NCBI RefSeq assembly: GCF_001676785.2
Contig: NZ_CP015910.2
Coordinates: 1,240,001 to 1,304,000 of the forward strand
Length of the DNA: 64,000 nt
Direction of reading: 5' to 3'
Origin: Brachyspira hyodysenteriae ATCC 27164
GTDB lineage: Bacteria > Spirochaetota > Brachyspiria > Brachyspirales > Brachyspiraceae
Shown: positions 1 to 54,275 of the stretch, piece by piece
Layout: each line of letters opens with the position of its first letter
Position numbering within the stretch: position 1 is the stretch's first letter
Notes under the pieces: generated by a model
What the model was told of the DNA's origin: nothing
Seen by the model: the letters and a program-made list of their open reading frames with translations, nothing else
The model's database searches: none
Position numbers and translations under genes: made by a program

Positions 1-572
1 AAAGGGTCATAGAAAGGGTAGGTTCTAATACTCCTATTGATGTTGATATAAGAGTAATTGCTGCCACAAACAAGAAATTATCAGAGGAAATAAAAGAAGG
101 TAAATTCAGAGAAGATTTATATTATAGACTTAATGTAATAAAAATAGAAATGCCTCCTCTTAGAGAGAGAAGAGAAGATATACCTCTTTTGATAGATAAT
201 TTTATAAAAGAGTTTTCTAAAGTTCATTCTATAGAAATAAAATCAGTTGATAAGAAAGTGTATAAAATATTATCTTCATTGCAATGGGAAGGAAATGTAA
301 GAGAACTTAGAAACACTATAGAAACTATGGTGGTTATGTGTAAAGACGGTAAAATTGATGAGAGCAATATACCTGATTGGGCTTTGAAAAATAGCGAAAG
401 TAATTTTGTAGTTGAAAATGATGTTACATTAGAAGAACTTGAAAGAATGTATATTAATCATTTGCTTAGCAATAATAATTTCAATAAGGCTCAGGTTGCT
501 AAAATACTTGGAATTGAAAGAGCTACTCTTTATAGAAAATTGAAAGAGGATAATAAAGATATTAAAGAATAA
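1..572 (+). CDS. Sigma-54-dependent transcriptional activator, C-terminal part (5' end outside window)
   Basis: The reading frame is open from base 3 of the window to the TAA at 570-572, so the gene begins upstream. The first residues read as the second half of an NtrC-type AAA+ domain: a stretch with the sensor motif IAATN, then FREDLYYRLNV and PPLRERREDI, which are hallmarks of this family, followed by the WxGNVRELRN segment. The last 45 residues form a Fis-type helix-turn-helix (AQVAKILGIERATLYRKL). The protein would drive sigma-54 RNA polymerase at a distant promoter. Its input domain (receiver, PAS or other) cannot be seen, so the signal is unknown. Assignment to the family is firm; the target genes are not. 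Confidence 0.93.
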   Translation, partial: RVIERVGSNTPIDVDIRVIAATNKKLSEEIKEGKFREDLYYRLNVIKIEMPPLRERREDIPLLIDNFIKEFSKVHSIEIKSVDKKVYKILSSLQWEGNVRELRNTIETMVVMCKDGKIDESNIPDWALKNSESNFVVENDVTLEELERMYINHLLSNNNFNKAQVAKILGIERATLYRKLKEDNKDIKE

Positions 573-638: not shown

Positions 639-1103
639 TTATTTTACAACAGTCATTATAGTATCTTCTAAAGAAACTTCCCTAGGAGCTGTTTTAGTTA
701 ACGATTTTAATTCAGAAAAATTAGGTATTATAACAGGAGAAGTAATATCATATTCTTTTTCTACCTCTTCTTTATCAAATTCTATAAGCAATGTACCTAC
801 TTTAACTTTATCACCTTCTTTAACATGTGCTTTGAAATGTTTACCTTTTAATTTTACAGTATCCATTCCAATGTGTATAAGTATTTCTATACCTTTAGAA
901 GACAAGCCTATAGCATGATTGCTATCAACCATTGTTATAACTTCTCCGTCAATAGGAGAGTACACTTTTCCTTCATCTGGTATAATAGCCATTCCGTCAC
1001 CAAGTGCTTTTGTAGAGAAAGCTTCATCTTTTACTTCTGTAACATCCACTAATTTACCTTTTATAGGGCTTTTTACTTCAATTTTCTTAGAGAATAATCC
1101 CAT
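639..1103 (-). CDS. crr: PTS glucose-family IIA component (single-domain)
   Basis: This 154-residue stand-alone IIA(Glc)-type domain takes phosphate from HPr and passes it to a IIB domain in the cytoplasm. The family pattern is clear: SPIKGKLVDVTEV near the start, GDGMAIIP, SPIDGEV, then the two active-site histidines H63 (SNHAIGL) and H77 (ILIHIGMDTV). Length matches free-standing Crr proteins. A strong GGAGGT ribosome-binding site lies 7 bases ahead of the ATG. It is divergent from the NagE-like IICB gene at 1380, which lacks its own IIA domain, so the two probably work together. It could also serve other IIA-less permeases in the genome. Confidence 0.93.
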   Translation of the reverse strand: MGLFSKKIEVKSPIKGKLVDVTEVKDEAFSTKALGDGMAIIPDEGKVYSPIDGEVITMVDSNHAIGLSSKGIEILIHIGMDTVKLKGKHFKAHVKEGDKVKVGTLLIEFDKEEVEKEYDITSPVIIPNFSELKSLTKTAPREVSLEDTIMTVVK

Positions 1104-1379: not shown

Positions 1380-2840
1380 ATGTTTAATTATCTACAAAGA
1401 ATAGGTAAGTCCCTAATGGTTCCGGTTGCTGTATTACCTGCAGCAGCTATTCTATTGGGTATCGGTTATTGGATTGACCCAAATGGATGGGGCGGCGGAA
1501 GTCCTGTTGCAGCTTTCTTCATTAAAGCTGGAGGATCTATTATAGACAATATGCCTATACTTTTCGCTATTGGTGTTGCTTTCGGTATGTCCAAAGATAG
1601 AAATGGTTCTGCTGCTTTAGCTGGTCTTGTTGCTTTTCTTGTTGTAACAACTCTTTTAGCTCCTGCTACAGTTGGTATGATTCAAAGCAAAGCTGTTGAA
1701 GATGTTCCTGCTGGTTTTGCTAAAATCAATAACCAATTTATAGGTATATTATGAGGAGTTATTGCAGGAGGTTTATATAATAAATTTTCTGAAATAAAAT
1801 TGCCTGAATTTTTGGCATTCTTCAGCGGAAGAAGATTCGTACCAATAATTACATCTGTAGTTATGATGGTGGTATCTTTTATTTTAATGGTTATTTGGCC
1901 TGCAATTTATGGCGGTTTAGTAGCATTTGGTGAAGCTATAATAGGTCTTGGTCCTATAGGAGCAGGTATTTATGGTTTCTTCAATAGATTATTAATCCCT
2001 GTTGGTTTACACCATGCACTTAACTCAGTATTCTGGTTCGACGTTGCTGGTATTAATGATATACCTAATTTCTTAGGCGGTCAGGCTTCTATAGATGCCG
2101 GCACAGCTACAATAGGTGTTACTGGTATGTATCAGGCTGGTTTCTTCCCTATTATGATGTTCGGACTTTTAGGTGCTTGTTTAGCATTCATTAAAAATGC
2201 TAAGCCTCAAAATAGAAACAAAATTAAATCTATAATGTTAGCTGCTGGTTTTGCTAGCTTCTTTACTGGCGTTACTGAACCTATAGAATTCTCATTTATG
2301 TTCGTAGCTCCTGTATTATATGTAATACATGCATTATTAACTTGTATTTCTTTAATCATTTCTGCTAGCTTTAAATGGATGGCTGGATTCGGATTCTCTG
2401 CTGGTTTAATAGACTTACTTCTTTCTACTAAAAACCCATTAGCTTGTAATTGGTATATGCTTATTATACAAGGTTTAGTATTCTTTGTATTATATTTTGT
2501 TATATTCAATTTTGCTATACAGAAATTCAATCTTAAAACTCCTGGTAGAGAAGATGATGATGAGGCAGAAGTAGAAATTACTGTTTCAGGCGATGCTTCT
2601 TATGCAGAAAAAGCATTAATGCTTCTTCCTTTGCTTGGCGGTATAGAAAATATAGTTGATATTGATAACTGCGCAACTAGATTAAGATTAGAAGTAAAAG
2701 ATAATACAATAATACAGGCTGCTGAAATTAAAAAAATATTCCCTGGTGTATTAACTCCTGGAAAAACTTCTGTACAAGTAATTGTAGGACCTAAAGTACA
2801 ATTCTTAGCAGATGAATTTAAGAAAGTAGCTAAAAAATAA
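1380..2840 (+). pseudogene. nagE: NagE-like PTS IICB permease interrupted by an in-frame TGA
   Basis: Two open segments (1380-1754 and about 1755-2840) share one frame and join into a 486-codon IICB protein broken only by the TGA at 1752-1754. The IIC domain resembles NagE (N-acetylglucosamine family): LPAAAILLGIGYW, KLPEFLAFFSGRRFVPI, LLIPVGLHHALNSVFWF, GMYQAGFFPIMMFG, FTGVTEPIEF and NLKTPGRED. The IIB domain ends the protein with the phosphorylation cysteine in DNCATRLRL. There is no IIA domain; the divergent IIA gene may supply it. The start has a GGAGGA site. A downstream restart at TTG 1800 lacks a well-placed ribosome site. The stop may be a true nonsense mutation, a sequencing error, or readthrough. 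TGG encodes tryptophan nearby, so a reassigned code is unlikely. Confidence 0.85.
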
Positions 2841-2864
2841 TTATTTATATAATTTATGATATGA

Positions 2865-2901
2865 TAGCCTGCAATACTATTAAATATTGCAGGCTATTTT
2901 T
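2865..2901 (+). terminator. Rho-independent terminator after PTS IICB
   Basis: A perfect 12-bp stem, TAGCCTGCAATA (2865-2876) with TATTGCAGGCTA (2885-2896), is followed by TTTTT. It separates the IICB gene from the tetra-IIB gene, which therefore probably has its own promoter or depends on readthrough. Confidence 0.88.
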
Positions 2902-2963
2902 GTAGAAATAAAATAAATATTATGTTAGTATTTATGTATATACTAGCATAATGAGGTTTAATA

Positions 2964-3950
2964 ATGGAATCAAATAAAAAAGATGTTAAATTTATACTTC
3001 CTTTAAGTTTATTAGGAGGAAGGGAAAATATAGTAAAAGTAAATAATTGTGCAACTAGATTAAGATTGGAAGTAAAAGATACTAGTAAAGTGAATATTGA
3101 TGAAATAAAAAAGTATTATCCTGCTGTGCAAAAAATAAGTGATACAGAGATTCATATAGTAGTAGGTACAGATGCAAGCGAACTTGCTGAATCTTTAAAA
3201 AGAATAATAGCTTTTGATTATGATCCTTCTAGTATGGCTATGACTCTTATTCCTTTGCTTGGAGGCAGAGAAAATATAGTAAAAGTAAATAATTGTGCTA
3301 CTAGAGTTAGACTTGAAGTTGTGAATGCTGATAAAGTTAATGAAGAGAAATATTATCCTGTAATACAGAAAATAAGTGTTACAGAGGTTCATGTATTAGT
3401 AGGCACTAAGGCTTCTGAGGTTGCTAATGAATTATCAAAGATTTTAAATATCTCTGATAATAATACAAATACAAACTATTCTTATAGAGCTTGGCTTCTT
3501 TTTCCTATGCTTGGAGGAATAGAAAATGTTGTAAAAATAAATAATTGTGCTACTAGATTAAGACTTGAATTAAAAGATGTTAATAAAGTAAATATTGAAG
3601 AAATAAAGAAATATTATCCTGCTGTACAGAAAATAAGTGATACAGAGCTTCATATAGTAATTGGTACGGATGCAAGTTTATTTGCTGATGCTTTTAGAAA
3701 TATATTTGAAAGTCATAAATTGAAAACTGCTTTAATTCTTCCATTGGTTGGGGGTATAGATAATATAACTAAAGTAAATAATTGTGCTACTAGATTAAGA
3801 TTAGAAATAAAAGATATTAATAAAGTTGATGTTGAAAGTATAAAGAAATATTATCCTGCTGTTGAAAAAATAGATGATAAGGAGCTGCATATAGTTGTTG
3901 GTATTGATGCTAATGAACTTGCTAATGAATTCAAAAAATTTGTAATTTAA
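2964..3950 (+). CDS. Protein of four tandem PTS IIB domains, no IIC or IIA
   Basis: The 328 residues consist of four repeats of about 75-80 residues: roughly 8-82, 91-161, 174-248 and 254-328. Each opens with (L/F)P(L/M)xGGxxN, carries NNCATR(L/V)RLE, and ends with (K)YYPxxxKI and a VG/IG-TDAS-like helix start. This is the fold signature of glucose-family PTS IIB. The phosphorylatable cysteine is present in all four copies (C29, C111, C195, C274). There is no signal peptide or membrane segment, so it should be cytoplasmic. The repeats resemble the IIB domain of the preceding IICB gene, which suggests amplification from it. It could be a phosphate reservoir, a supplier of IIB to IIC proteins, or a sensor; none is shown by the sequence. 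Confidence 0.88.
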   Translation: MESNKKDVKFILPLSLLGGRENIVKVNNCATRLRLEVKDTSKVNIDEIKKYYPAVQKISDTEIHIVVGTDASELAESLKRIIAFDYDPSSMAMTLIPLLGGRENIVKVNNCATRVRLEVVNADKVNEEKYYPVIQKISVTEVHVLVGTKASEVANELSKILNISDNNTNTNYSYRAWLLFPMLGGIENVVKINNCATRLRLELKDVNKVNIEEIKKYYPAVQKISDTELHIVIGTDASLFADAFRNIFESHKLKTALILPLVGGIDNITKVNNCATRLRLEIKDINKVDVESIKKYYPAVEKIDDKELHIVVGIDANELANEFKKFVI

Positions 3951-7023: not shown

Positions 7024-8022
7024 ATGAAAAAAATATTTTTATTAATCACGATTATGTCTTTAATTATAATTCAATGCGGTAATAAAACAGATACTCAAAC
7101 TACTTCTGCTAATACAAATGAAGCAGTACAGTCAAATAATACTATACCAGCAACAAAAATATTATCTCAAGCAGATACAGCATTTTTAGAGAAAGTAAAA
7201 AATAAAATAGTAATAGACAGAAATTCTCAATATACTTTCAAAGAGAATGGAGATATAGAATATGTATTTGAGAGCGGAGATTATAGAGAAGATAAAAATT
7301 ATATATTTGAATCTTCAAAAGACGGAACTAATGCTTATTATTATGAAACTTATAATATACAGGATAAATACAAAGAAGGACCAAGCAATATAGCTACAAA
7401 TTATGAAGGCTTTTCTGTAATAAATGGAATTCTTTATGAGGATAATTATGAAGGTTATGAAGGCGATCCTATTGAAACTATAATGGTTAAATGGGAAAAA
7501 GAAAATTATTATTCTAATTACTATTACAGAGAAGTAAAAGAAAATCCTAACTTCGATAATTTCCCTTATGAGAATAAAGCCGATGTAACTTTCGATAACT
7601 ATAATAGAATATCAAGAGGTGTATTAATATCAAAATCAGATTATAAACTTGAAGAAGTAGGGGATATTAGCATGTATAATTTTGATAATGTATATACAAA
7701 TGGTTATAATGCATCTATTGAATTAAAGAAAAATGATGACGGAACATTCTATTTCTATGCTATTAATATAACTACAGATGAAAACGGACAAACAGTAACT
7801 AATATTCAAAGCACAGATGTTAGTAAAATGGTATTATCAGAAAATCAGTATGTTGAGCCTTATTGTGAAATATTTGACGATTCTATTCAGTATGGAGAAG
7901 TTTACGGTGCTGATGGTACATATATAATAGATATAACTCCTATAAGTTCTGATGCTTTAATTTTAGTTGAAAATAATGGAAGCTATGGATTTAGCGGAGT
8001 TTTTAAAAAGCAGTCTAATTAA
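7024..8022 (+). CDS. Lipoprotein, first copy of a tandem pair
   Basis: A 332-residue exported lipoprotein of unknown function. The N-terminus MKKIFLLIT is followed by a hydrophobic stretch and a relaxed spirochaete lipobox ending at C18 (LIIIQC-GNK). A Thr/Asn/Gln-rich linker covers about 20-45. The rest is rich in Tyr, Asn, Asp and Lys with no recognisable enzyme motif. It is strongly similar along its whole length to the first two thirds of the next gene at 8168, including promoter and signal peptide, so the pair arose by tandem duplication. A hairpin terminator follows. I do not recognise a named family. Confidence 0.85.
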   Translation: MKKIFLLITIMSLIIIQCGNKTDTQTTSANTNEAVQSNNTIPATKILSQADTAFLEKVKNKIVIDRNSQYTFKENGDIEYVFESGDYREDKNYIFESSKDGTNAYYYETYNIQDKYKEGPSNIATNYEGFSVINGILYEDNYEGYEGDPIETIMVKWEKENYYSNYYYREVKENPNFDNFPYENKADVTFDNYNRISRGVLISKSDYKLEEVGDISMYNFDNVYTNGYNASIELKKNDDGTFYFYAINITTDENGQTVTNIQSTDVSKMVLSENQYVEPYCEIFDDSIQYGEVYGADGTYIIDITPISSDALILVENNGSYGFSGVFKKQSN

Positions 8023-8167: not shown

Positions 8168-9658
8168 ATGAAGAAAATATTTGCACTCATTACAATAATG
8201 TCTTTAATAATAATTCAATGCGGTAATAAAACTGATAATCAAACTACTTCTAATAACAATGTTAATACAAATGAAACAGTACAGTCAAATGAAACTATAC
8301 CAGTAACAAAAATATTATCACAGGAAGATGCTGCATTTTTGGATAAGGTAAAGAATAAAATAATTATAAGCGGTATGGCTAAATACACTTTCAAAGATAA
8401 CGGGGATATAGAATATGTATATGATTCTGGAAGTTATAGAGAAGATAAAAATTATATTTTTGAATCTTCAAAAGACGGAACTAATGCTTATTATTATGAA
8501 CTTTATAATATACAAGATAAGTACGAAGAAGGACCAAGTAATATAGCTACAAATTATAAAGGCTTTTCTGTAAAAAATGGAATTCTTTATGAGGATAATT
8601 ATCAAGGTTATGAAAGTGATCCTAATGAAACTATAATAACTAAATGGGAAAAAGAAAATTATTATTCTAATTATTATTACAGAGAAGTAAAAGAAAATCC
8701 TAACTTCGATAATTTCCCTTATGAGAATAAGGCTGATGTAACTTTTGAAGCGTATAATGAAAGACAAGAAGGTATATTAATATTAGAATCAGAGTATAGA
8801 CCAGAAGAAGTAGGTAATATTAATACTTATAATTTTAACGGTATATATTCAAATAATAATTCTTCTATAGAATTAAATAAAAATAATGATGAAACTTTCT
8901 ATTTATATGCTATTAACATAACTACAGATGAAAACGGACAAACAGTAACTAATATTCAAAGTACAGATGTTAGTAAAATGATATTACAAGAAAATCAGTA
9001 TGTTGAGCCTCATTGCGGTATAGGTTCTCATACTTTAGATTATGAAGAGACTGTAGGAATGGATGGAGGTTATATTATATCTATTCATCCTATAAATGCT
9101 GATACTATTATGGTAACAGAGCCTAACGGAAGCTATGGATTTACCGGCATATATAAAAAAGCTTCTGAAATAGCGGATGCTGTAGATGCCAATGATAAAA
9201 GCACTAAAGAAAAAGCATATTATAATGCTTGCAGATGGTATGCTGAAAATTACAGTGAATTAAGTGATATTTTTAATAAAATTGTAGATTTTGATTTTGA
9301 GGGCGGCGGATATTATGAGATTAATATGGAGAATGTATATCTCTATATAGCTAAATTTAAAAATTCTGGATATTTTTCTGACAATTATATTAAAAATTTA
9401 GAAAATAGTTTTGAAGAAATAAAAAATAATTTGGAAGAAAATAAACAAAATGATGGATCTGTTGAGGGTATGGAAGCAGACTGGTTTTTAGCTACACAGG
9501 AAATTGATTATTATCTTAATATTATAACTAATGAAATGAATCTTGAAGATATAGTACCTTATGGAGATGAAGGAGATTCTTTATGCATAAGTAATGAAGC
9601 AGGAGAGTCTGTTATTTTAGAGGTTAAAAAATATGGTAATGAATGGTTAATTGAATAA
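8168..9658 (+). CDS. Lipoprotein, second copy with a C-terminal extension
   Basis: A 496-residue lipoprotein with lipobox cysteine C18 (LIIIQC-GNK). Residues 1 to about 333 are a diverged copy of the protein at 7024; runs such as EDKNYIFESSKDGTNAYYYE and NENLQ-free linker regions can be aligned without large gaps. The extra C-terminal part of about 160 residues is absent from the first copy. It starts near KKASEIADAVDAN and is helical and acidic (NACRWYAENYSELSDIF, LENSFEEIKNNLEEN). The extension may be a separate domain gained by fusion, or the first copy may have lost it. Function is unknown. It is its own transcription unit. Confidence 0.85.
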   Translation: MKKIFALITIMSLIIIQCGNKTDNQTTSNNNVNTNETVQSNETIPVTKILSQEDAAFLDKVKNKIIISGMAKYTFKDNGDIEYVYDSGSYREDKNYIFESSKDGTNAYYYELYNIQDKYEEGPSNIATNYKGFSVKNGILYEDNYQGYESDPNETIITKWEKENYYSNYYYREVKENPNFDNFPYENKADVTFEAYNERQEGILILESEYRPEEVGNINTYNFNGIYSNNNSSIELNKNNDETFYLYAINITTDENGQTVTNIQSTDVSKMILQENQYVEPHCGIGSHTLDYEETVGMDGGYIISIHPINADTIMVTEPNGSYGFTGIYKKASEIADAVDANDKSTKEKAYYNACRWYAENYSELSDIFNKIVDFDFEGGGYYEINMENVYLYIAKFKNSGYFSDNYIKNLENSFEEIKNNLEENKQNDGSVEGMEADWFLATQEIDYYLNIITNEMNLEDIVPYGDEGDSLCISNEAGESVILEVKKYGNEWLIE

Positions 9659-50874: not shown

Positions 50875-51888
50875 ATGAAAAAAACTATGTTTATTTCTAT
50901 TTTATCAATGGCAGTGATATCTTTAATAATATCCTGTTCAGGAGGAAATAAAGCTCCTGCTGCTTCAGCAGATGGTACACTTGATAAAATAAGAGTTGCT
51001 TATCTTGCAGATTTTGCAGGAACTTCTTCTGTTGCTATAGCTCAGGAAAAAGGTTTTTTTAAAGAAGAAAATTTAGATGTTGAATTAGTTAAATTTTTAA
51101 ATGGACCTTCTGAAGTTGCTGCTATGCTCTCTGGAGATATACAATTTGCATATATAGGACATGGTGCACATTCTCTAGCTATTCAAGGTAAAGTTAATGT
51201 ATTATTCCCTAATGGTTTAGGTAAATCTGAAGAAATTATAGTTGGTAAATGGGCCAATGTTAATGATTTAGCAGGATTAAAAGGAAAAACTATAGGTACT
51301 CAGCTTGGTACTTCTGGAGATATAGTATTGGATATTGCATTAAGAAAAGTTGGACTTTCCAAAGAAGATGTTAATGTTGTCAATATGGATGTAAGCGGAA
51401 TAGTATCTTCTATGATTGGTAAAAAAGTAGATGCAGTTTCTTTATGGGCTCCTTATACTTTTGAAATAACTAAACAGCTTGGAGATGAAGCTGTTGTAAT
51501 TGCTTCTATTACAAATTATTTAGATGAAGCTGTATTTCCTAGCAGTTGGATAGTTACTCCTGATTATCAAAATAATAATCAAGACATAGTGAATAGATTC
51601 TCTAAAGCTATATTTAAAGCTATGGATTATAGAAGTGAGAATATGGATGAGGCTGTTGAAATTGTAGCTAAATTAAATGGAACTCCTGTTGATTCTGTTG
51701 CTTTAGAAAAAGAAACTGCTATATGGCTTACTTCTTCTGATATAAAAAATTCTTATACTGATGGAACAGCTGCTAAATGGTATCAAGCTCAGCAGAAAAT
51801 ATTTTTAAACTCAGAAGTAGTTACTGAAGAAGTAGATGTTAATAATTATGTACAGATAAATTATATAATTGATAATGTGCTTAAATAA
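50875..51888 (+). CDS. NitT/TauT-type substrate-binding lipoprotein, second
   Basis: A 337-residue lipoprotein with lipobox C21 (LIISC-SGGNK) and an AAGGAG site ahead of the ATG. The binding fold shows KIRVAYLADFAGTSSVAIAQ, GFFKEENLDVELVKFLNGPSE (in part), AYIGHGAHSLAIQGKVNVLFPNG (in part), GKTIGTQLGTSGDIV, VDAVSLWAPYTFEI and PSSWIVTPDYQ. It is much closer to the third binding protein than to the first, so the latter two arose by a recent duplication. The GHGAH and PSSWIV segments probably line the ligand pocket. Confidence 0.9.
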   Translation: MKKTMFISILSMAVISLIISCSGGNKAPAASADGTLDKIRVAYLADFAGTSSVAIAQEKGFFKEENLDVELVKFLNGPSEVAAMLSGDIQFAYIGHGAHSLAIQGKVNVLFPNGLGKSEEIIVGKWANVNDLAGLKGKTIGTQLGTSGDIVLDIALRKVGLSKEDVNVVNMDVSGIVSSMIGKKVDAVSLWAPYTFEITKQLGDEAVVIASITNYLDEAVFPSSWIVTPDYQNNNQDIVNRFSKAIFKAMDYRSENMDEAVEIVAKLNGTPVDSVALEKETAIWLTSSDIKNSYTDGTAAKWYQAQQKIFLNSEVVTEEVDVNNYVQINYIIDNVLK

Positions 51889-51979
51889 AAAAATATTTTT
51901 CATATTTTCATATTGAAATTTTTTATAATTAATAAAGAATATATAATAAATTTTTTATTGATATAAGGTGGTCTGCAAT

Positions 51980-52984
51980 ATGAATAAGAAGAACATTATA
52001 TTATTATTATCTATTATTATGATGCTGATTGTATCATGTGAGGAAAAAACAGAAAGTACTGTGCCAATACAAAAATATCCAATAAGAGTTGGATATATGC
52101 CAGATTTTTCTGGAAGTTCTGCTGTTGCTATAGCAAAAGAAAAGGGTTATTTTGATGAAGAAAATTTAGATGTTACATTGGTTGAGTTTTTAGATGGTCC
52201 TTCTGAAGTAGAGGAGATGCTTTTAAAAAATTTAGAATTTGCTTATATAGGACATGGTGCACATGCTTTAGCTATTGAAGGTAAAGTTAATGTATTATTT
52301 CCTAATGGTTTAAGCAGATCTGAACAAATTATAGTAAGAAATGCTTCTCAAATAGAATCTATTAAAGATTTAAGAGGTAAAAAAGTTGGAACACAATTAG
52401 GAACTTCTTCAGAAATTTTACTTTATTTGGCTCTTCAGTCATTAGGTATTAAAGCAGAAGAAGTAGATATTATAAATATGGATGGAAATACTATAGTATC
52501 ATCTATAGCTGATGGTACTATTGATGCTGCTTCAGTGCAAGCTCCATATACTTTTGAAATATTAAATAATACTGAAAACAATGTAAAGTCTATAGCTACA
52601 ACTGTTGATTATTCTGATGTAGGTTCTTTTCCTAGCAGCTGGATAGTTACACCTTCTTATCAAAGTAATAATACAGATATAGTTAATAGATTTTCAAGAG
52701 CTATACTTAAAGCTATGGACTATAGACAACTTAATATGAGTGAAGCTGTGCAATTGGTTGCTAACATGAATAGTAAAACAGTTGAAGAAGTTGATTTAGA
52801 AAGAGAAACAGGAGTATGGTTTTCTGGTAATGAGATAAAGCAAGCATATATTAATGGTGATGCTGGTAAATGGTATAAAACACAGCAGAATATATTTATT
52901 TATACTAAAACTATTACAAATAATATTGATATTAATAATTATGTGCAGTTAAAATACATGGTTGATAATGTATTTAATGAATAA
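51980..52984 (+). CDS. NitT/TauT-type substrate-binding lipoprotein, third
   Basis: A 334-residue lipoprotein. ATG 51980 is chosen; a GTG four codons upstream overlaps the AAGGTGG ribosome site. The lipobox is LMLIVSC-EEK. It is a paralogue of the second binding protein: the fold opens with IRVGYMPDFSGSSAVAIAKEKGY (seen in part), retains AYIGHGAHALAIEG and PSSWIVTPSYQ, but reads VDAVSLWAPYTFEI as IDAASVQAPYTFEI and has drifted in EMLLKNLEF. Loss of the W before APY may change ligand choice. A terminator follows. Confidence 0.9.
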   Translation: MNKKNIILLLSIIMMLIVSCEEKTESTVPIQKYPIRVGYMPDFSGSSAVAIAKEKGYFDEENLDVTLVEFLDGPSEVEEMLLKNLEFAYIGHGAHALAIEGKVNVLFPNGLSRSEQIIVRNASQIESIKDLRGKKVGTQLGTSSEILLYLALQSLGIKAEEVDIINMDGNTIVSSIADGTIDAASVQAPYTFEILNNTENNVKSIATTVDYSDVGSFPSSWIVTPSYQSNNTDIVNRFSRAILKAMDYRQLNMSEAVQLVANMNSKTVEEVDLERETGVWFSGNEIKQAYINGDAGKWYKTQQNIFIYTKTITNNIDINNYVQLKYMVDNVFNE

Positions 52985-53081: not shown

Positions 53082-54275
53082 ATGAAAAGATTAAAAGCAA
53101 AGAATTTAAAAGAACAAAATTATATTGATATAGTAAAATTATTAAAAATAGGAAATTATTCAAGAGCTGATTTAGCTTATAATTTGGAATTAAGCAAAGC
53201 AAGTATATCTGTATTAGTAGAGGATTTAATTAATATGGGTATAATATATGAGAAATGTGATGGAGAATCATCTTCTCTTGGCGGTAAAAAACCTATATTA
53301 TTAGATATAAATAAAAACATAGGATATTTTATAGCAATTCATTTTAGGAGAGAATTTTGTAATATTGCTATAGTTAATTTAGAAAATGAAATTATAGAAG
53401 AATGTTCATTAAATGTAAATATAAATGATGATTATAAAATAACATTTAATCCAATAATTAAAAAGATTAAAGAATTAAAAAATAAATATAAAAACAAAAA
53501 AATATTTTCTATAGGAATATCTGTACCTGGTAAAATAAGTAAAAAAAATAATAATATGCTCGTAGATTGTATGGGAATACCTGAATGGAAAAATATACCA
53601 TTAAAAGAATATATAGAACAAAATACTGATATAGATGTTATAATAGATAGATATGCATGTGCTATGCTAACATACGGTATGCTTGAAGAGATGAAAAAAT
53701 CTATGCCTATACAAACTTCTTCCGTATATGTTTATTTGGGAAATTGGATTGGTGTATCTGTTTCTAATAATGGATCAATTTTATACGGAACTCATGATAC
53801 AGCTGCTAACTATTCTCATACTATAGTAACTGATTCTAATTATATTTGTATGTGCGGTAAAAAAGGCTGTTGGGAATCTGTTGCTAGTATAAATGCTTTT
53901 ATGAAAGAACTTCAAAGTAAAAGCAATAAATATAAAAATGTAAGTTATGAAGAAATTATTAAAAATCATATTAATGATGATATTGTAATTGAAACTTATA
54001 AGAAATTTTCGGCTTATTGGGTATCAATAGGAATATATAATATAGTTAATACTTTTGACCCTGAGACTATATTTATAGGCGGAGAAATGCTTTATTTAGG
54101 TGATGATTTTATCAATGAAATAAAAAATAATATTAAAAATAAATACAATTCATATAACTTCCTTACAGAAATAAATTTTATCAATAATTTTAAAGATATA
54201 GAAATATATGCAGCTGCTTCTGTAGCTATATATGATTTTTATAATTATAATCTTTATAAATATTTATCTAAGTAA
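53082..54275 (+). CDS. ROK-family (NagC/XylR-like) transcriptional regulator
   Basis: A 397-residue protein. The N-terminal winged helix-turn-helix (about 15-75) includes NYSRADLAYNLELSKASISVLVEDL (shown as YSRADLAYNLELSKASI). The ROK sugar-kinase-like fold follows with ISVPGKI, VDCMGIPEWKNIPL, YVYLGNWIGVSV and the zinc motif CMCGKKGCWESVASI. DPETIFIGGEM is the C-terminal ATP-fold strand. Such proteins sense sugars or sugar phosphates and usually repress adjacent uptake genes. Its presence implies that the neighbouring importer handles a sugar-like compound. No ribosome site stronger than AAAG is visible. Confidence 0.9.
   Translation: MKRLKAKNLKEQNYIDIVKLLKIGNYSRADLAYNLELSKASISVLVEDLINMGIIYEKCDGESSSLGGKKPILLDINKNIGYFIAIHFRREFCNIAIVNLENEIIEECSLNVNINDDYKITFNPIIKKIKELKNKYKNKKIFSIGISVPGKISKKNNNMLVDCMGIPEWKNIPLKEYIEQNTDIDVIIDRYACAMLTYGMLEEMKKSMPIQTSSVYVYLGNWIGVSVSNNGSILYGTHDTAANYSHTIVTDSNYICMCGKKGCWESVASINAFMKELQSKSNKYKNVSYEEIIKNHINDDIVIETYKKFSAYWVSIGIYNIVNTFDPETIFIGGEMLYLGDDFINEIKNNIKNKYNSYNFLTEINFINNFKDIEIYAAASVAIYDFYNYNLYKYLSK

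Follow-up and report, generated by a model that had tools for sequence, protein, structure and literature searches.

Gene content of the locus and architecture of iib4

In the 64,000-nucleotide stretch of Brachyspira hyodysenteriae ATCC 27164 analysed here (the window), a gene that we designate iib4 follows a nagE-type gene, and further upstream lie a stand-alone IIA gene and the end of a gene for a sigma-54 response regulator (Table 1), which is itself preceded, outside the window, by an AtoS-like histidine kinase.

Table 1. Features at the iib4 locus, with positions counted from the first letter of the window
Feature	Position	Strand	Basis
NtrC-type sigma-54 response regulator, C-terminal part	1..572	+	L043:2002-4572
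Stand-alone IIA, glucose family, divergent, likely phosphoryl donor	639..1103	-	PF00358
nagE-type IICB, 486 codons, probable source of the iib4 repeats	1380..2840	+	TIGR01998, 631.6 bits, over cut-off
Hairpin and T tract downstream of nagE, likely terminator between nagE and iib4	2863..2902	+	Fold -20.1 kcal/mol, z -6.8
Conserved 29-bp element TAGAAATAAAATAAATATTATGTTAGTAT, promoter and/or operator candidate	2903..2931	+	Alignment
iib4, four tandem glucose/NagE-type IIB domains, soluble, 328 aa	2964..3950	+	ORF, Pfam, NCBIfam, orthologues
IIB repeat 1, aa 9-80; phospho-Cys29 codon 3048-3050; His64 codon 3153-3155	2988..3203	+	
IIB repeat 2, aa 91-162; Cys111 codon 3294-3296; His143 codon 3390-3392	3234..3449	+	
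IIB repeat 3, aa 175-246; Cys195 codon 3546-3548; His230 codon 3651-3653	3486..3701	+	
IIB repeat 4, aa 254-325; Cys274 codon 3783-3785; His309 codon 3888-3890	3723..3938	+	

The iib4 frame is uninterrupted, and a Pfam scan (hmmscan) resolved its product into four separate PTS_EIIB stretches (PF00367; 183 bits against a cut-off of 27, E=5e-55), with neither a IIA nor a IIC domain found, in agreement with the initial annotation, which had read it as four tandem IIB domains in one soluble protein devoid of IIC and IIA. The protein also exceeded the NCBIfam EIIB_glc cut-off (TIGR00826, 129.7 versus 45.75 bits), its domains being closest to the NagE-type IIB (TIGR01998). It failed, on the other hand, as a full NagE IICB (184 bits against the TIGR01998 cut-off of 553, without PF02378), and as a FruA-type permease with duplicated IIB, since its IIBs belong to the glucose family and no IIC accompanies them.

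Each of the four cysteines lies within an NNCATR[L/V]R motif, as expected from the earlier claim that every active cysteine is kept. Indeed, the phospho-acceptor motif C-x-T-R-x-R is present in 4/4 repeats here and in all repeats across 18 genomes: among the 74 complete repeats compared, all 74 carry CATR[L/V]R and retain the Cys and both Arg of CxTRxR. Successive cysteines are separated by 82, 84 and 79 residues, with short inter-domain links, the last of these three values recurring in all four-repeat relatives; in repeat 2, three residues are deleted ahead of KYYP.

The AlphaFold2 model, based on 19 homologues, displays the IIB topology four times, with a mean pLDDT of 79.6 and a pTM of 0.57, indicating that the domains are fairly well predicted and that their mutual arrangement is not. 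Foldseek matched this model to structures of E. coli IIBGlc, either free or complexed with IIA or Mlc, namely 1o2f_B (rmsd 1.2, with a target-length TM of 0.89), 3bp3 and the Mlc/EIIB entry 3bp8, with target-length TM values of 0.84-0.89 over the set. Profile scores, motif and predicted fold thus all identify the repeats as members of the glucose-family EIIB.

A distinctive trait of these repeats is found in the last strand, where His (xHIVVG) occupies, in 74/74 complete repeats, the position of the usual Gln (VQVIVG), a residue that is common rather than strictly defining for glucose-family EIIB (VQ-hydrophobic-G). Gln stands there in all 30 ordinary Brachyspira IIBs compared (26 from NagE and four others of this genome), as well as in E. 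coli IIBGlc (GVQAIFG), where we take it to lie near the phospho-Cys. Among the further IIBs compared, His was found in two only: an ordinary IIB (L144), so the substitution need not abolish transport nor exclude EIIB membership, and the first of the tandem C-terminal IIBs in a NagE of a distant spirochaete (G316; L113:1466-3523), in which a His-type LAHVVIG is followed by a canonical AVQVIIG.

The G316 protein resembles iib4 in having an extra IIB, with both the Cys motif and the Gln-to-His change, beside a canonical one, and differs in that its two IIBs are fused to a IIC. The tree places its His-type IIB outside the iib4 repeats, an AU test does not reject their grouping (p 0.47), and a common origin may be considered. 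The statement that PTS proteins carry one IIB consequently holds as the norm and not as a rule, as this NagE has two and so does E. coli FruA, whose full activity needs both (PMC2405797). FruA-type IIB'-IIB-IIC proteins share with iib4 the presence of more than one IIB per chain; however, they are membrane proteins with two copies of a fructose-family IIB, the extra one being fused to IIC.

Among known systems, the IIB of NagE (IICB-GlcNAc; TIGR01998, PF00367) is the nearest in sequence (45-47% to the NagE IIB of the window), sharing the Cys and Arg motif and the predicted fold. Unlike NagE, iib4 lacks a IIC and the KTPGRED linker, presents four copies in a soluble chain, and carries, in addition to the last-strand His, AVQKIS in place of the GV..PGK loop. 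Similarly, E. coli IIBGlc, alone or with Mlc (1o2f, 3bp3, 3bp8), has the same fold and CxTRxR, but it is a single domain of a membrane protein and keeps the last-strand Gln. Stand-alone IIBs such as LicB and GmuB, from lactose-family PTS (PMC6148471), are soluble and separate from IIC like iib4, whereas they belong to another IIB family, consist of one domain, and serve a cognate IIC that lacks its own IIB. Separately, two Brachyspira genomes without iib4 encode stand-alone 86-aa IIBs of the B-first glucose-family type, with Gln (L111:4586-4846 and L112:3394-3654). No published description of the iib4 protein was found in a literature search; a proteome paper reports NagE (PMC4955376), and no mention of iib4 was found in it. 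In the papers found, then, neither this architecture nor its strand residue is described.

Distribution, maintenance and origin of the repeats

Orthologues of iib4, usually with four repeats, occur in 18 of the 26 Brachyspira species genomes and are absent from the other eight, which answers the earlier call to look for this architecture across the genus. The full four-repeat ORF is present in 16 genomes, i.e., this one and 15 others, several of the latter being assemblies of 1-4 contigs only, and both chance and an artefact of assembly, the latter an objection raised in the initial annotation itself, are therefore rejected. Variants comprise a three-repeat form (G017), a three-repeat together with a four-repeat gene (G014), and a two-repeat gene preceding a four-repeat one (G008), while in G007 the gene is split across contig ends. 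Mapped on the NagE tree, presence and absence require two changes, e.g., one gain and one loss.

Beyond the genus, no all-IIB tandem protein was found in the other Spirochaetota genomes of a sample of 296. Outside the Spirochaetota, the survey consisted of a GTDB-wide scan with patterns of the iib4 protein itself, which returned Brachyspira matches only, and of 72,556 plasmid records, among which no locus covered 80% of the protein and no all-IIB tandem was seen. Hence, iib4 is a real and conserved family restricted to Brachyspira and fixed in one Brachyspira group.

Whole-gene pairwise dN/dS values ranged from 0.12 to 0.29, denoting purifying selection and a gene that is maintained; with the Cys present in every repeat of 18 genomes, this agrees with the view that iib4 is not a decaying duplication. 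In parallel, the repeats exchange sequence. Between this genome (G000) and G025, dS was 0.54 in repeat 1, 0.02 in repeats 2 and 3, and 0.35 in repeat 4, and blocks covering repeats 2 and 3 are near-identical between genomes with differing flanks; such blocks and the uneven dS point to recombination of repeats between species, a signal in which chimeras are possible given that some iib4-bearing genomes are metagenome assemblies.

This exchange could recall a selfish or near-neutral duplication, in which a recombining repeat gene is retained by chance, and the repeat number of 2, 3 or 4, the paralogous copies in G008 and G014, and the absence of iib4 from nearly a third of the genomes could be accommodated in the same manner. 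We regard such an origin as highly improbable; the retention of every Cys, the purifying selection, and the upstream element conserved even in relocated copies speak against it, and the selection data already disfavour it.

Regarding their origin, the repeats form a single clade (support 100/100) within the Brachyspira NagE IIBs (99/92), in a tree of 72-73 columns that also included IIBs from other spirochaetes, a plasmid and E. coli. This nesting suggests that the IIB of the adjoining NagE served as their template, and, within the limits of so short an alignment, the proposed derivation from the adjacent gene is borne out by the repeat phylogeny. The repeat-by-repeat tree, built on 72 columns from repeats that recombine, leaves many forks open and yields no order of duplication.

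Transcriptional context and neighbouring genes

About 60 bases ahead of the iib4 start codon begins the element TAGAAATAAAATAAATATTATGTTAGTAT, which is near-identical upstream of all 19 iib4 copies aligned, relocated ones included, and occurs once in this genome when up to 3 mismatches are allowed. It is promoter-like (TAGAAA-17-TAGTAT, with a TG before the -10 and 4/6 matches in each hexamer), and a consensus promoter scan did not list it. Judged on these letters, a promoter whose hexamers are 17 bp apart is possible, and the conservation of the spacer suggests an operator role too. Moreover, in three genomes (G018, G002 and G020; L051, L056 and L057), iib4 and the element are found together at a site remote from nagE, flanked by ftsK on one side and by a gene for a UgpC/MalK-type ABC ATPase on the other. 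The likely terminator behind nagE, together with an element of its own that is relocated with the gene, indicates that iib4 is most likely its own transcription unit.

Beside the intact iib4, nagE is interrupted in this genome by an in-frame TGA at codon 125 (1752-1754), where 25/25 Brachyspira relatives have Cys. Since the frame is otherwise undecayed, with two other private changes, the stop would be recent, whether it is a trait of the strain or an error in the sequence. The intact iib4 next to a broken nagE is compatible with a function independent of transport by NagE, although so recent a stop makes this weak evidence. Selenocysteine at this TGA was considered and found no support: a hairpin follows the codon, yet its sequence is nearly unchanged in a Cys-bearing relative, and Rfam finds nothing.

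The stand-alone IIA has orthologues in 24 of the 26 Brachyspira genomes, and a specific tie of iib4 to it was discarded, as the IIA is also present in most genomes without iib4. The UgpC/MalK-type ATPase adjoins iib4 in many genomes and at the relocated loci; nevertheless, it is absent from four genomes with iib4 (this one, G005, G024 and G025) and present in four without it (G001, G011, G016 and G019), a mismatch in both directions indicating that it is not a required partner. Elsewhere in the window, two tandem paralogous lipoprotein-like genes (7024-8022 and 8168-9658) have nearly identical N-termini, the second with an extra C-terminal part.

Putative role of iib4 in the phosphotransferase system

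The genome encodes EI, IIA and IIC proteins, and phosphate would pass from PEP through EI, HPr and a IIA, probably the stand-alone one of Table 1, to the four iib4 cysteines. An EI N-terminal domain was also noted in three proteins of this one genome (G000:C1:2608389, 888545 and 686508; frames of 588, 589 and 488 aa). Glucose-family IIAs freely charge non-cognate IIBs (PMC6148471), so that IIA~P would likely charge each of the four cysteines, and we consider phosphorylation of iib4 by IIA to be probable. Cut off from a IIC and with the Gln-to-His change in every repeat, iib4 most likely does not itself drive transport; that its role is that of a buffer or readout instead is, from motifs and gene context, an evenly balanced judgement.

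In this context, we propose that iib4 would be a cytosolic PTS phospho-acceptor made of IIB domains only, which at the level of IIA~P would reversibly store or report PTS phosphorylation on several sites. It would be charged in the absence of sugar flow and discharged during flow, and would either damp IIA~P or let a partner bind any of four similar surfaces of dephospho-IIB. As an overall explanation, a multisite phospho-acceptor that is charged by IIA~P and buffers or reports the PTS state seems to us plausible, with about equal weight for and against. A more specific version, tentative and somewhat doubtful, is that of a dedicated cytosolic PTS "capacitor", a four-site phosphocysteine protein whose altered active-site region, with its uniform Gln-to-His change, would retain phosphate with greater stability than the IIB of a transporter does and set the IIA~P signal. 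It would then represent a class of PTS component with no transport role.

A IIB domain is usually interpreted as part of a transporter, and iib4 is a conserved soluble protein consisting of nothing else; if the proposal is right, cells can store or read the IIB~P state as such in their cytosol. The PTS phosphorylation state is a main bacterial nutrient signal, and little is known of regulation in animal gut spirochaetes.

Besides a phosphate buffer and a sensor, roles that sequence does not tell apart, the initial annotation had also suggested that iib4 might supply IIB to IIC proteins. In that case it would donate phosphate in trans to sugar bound in NagE or another glucose-family IIC and raise the local IIB~P concentration. 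The catalytic residues of the Cys motif, all kept, and the ancestry in the NagE IIB would be in accordance with such donation, as would the requirement for both FruA IIBs for full activity (PMC2405797). Furthermore, E. coli PtsG stays active in trans when its IIC and IIB are separated (cited in PMC6148471), and EIIA/EIIB cross-talk is common (PMC6148471), so that donation by iib4 to a IIC would be possible. Nevertheless, NagE and every other glucose-family IIC of this genome already carry their own IIB, iib4 has no KTPGRED linker and has His for Gln in every repeat, and the neighbouring IIC is broken here while iib4 is intact, all of which weakens the supplier idea; its separate upstream element, with a terminator between it and nagE, is likewise unfavourable, and we deem this role unlikely. 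An orphan IIC in need of a soluble IIB was sought and set aside: the one IIC-only gene found with PF02378 (449 aa, L076) looks, by its sequence, lactose/cellobiose-like, and a matching IIB would belong to another family.

Another alternative to the phospho-acceptor role is that of a decoy or sensor acting on a regulator. In E. coli, membrane tethering matters for the inactivation of the repressor Mlc, and iib4 is soluble, which makes a direct parallel questionable. Dephosphorylated IICBGlc binds Mlc (PMC3901232) and, by analogy, the dephospho repeats might bind a transcription factor, with four sites titrating it. The fold match to the IIB of the Mlc/EIIB complex (3bp8), the upstream element proper to iib4, and the ROK proteins of this genome, one of which (window 53082-54275) reads as having an HTH-like N-terminus, are compatible with this; however, no regulator is linked to iib4, the ROK gene being 50 kb away, and we find such a function quite unlikely. 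Just before that ROK-family gene lie two tandem paralogous ABC substrate-binding-like lipoprotein genes (window 50875-51888 and 51968-52984).
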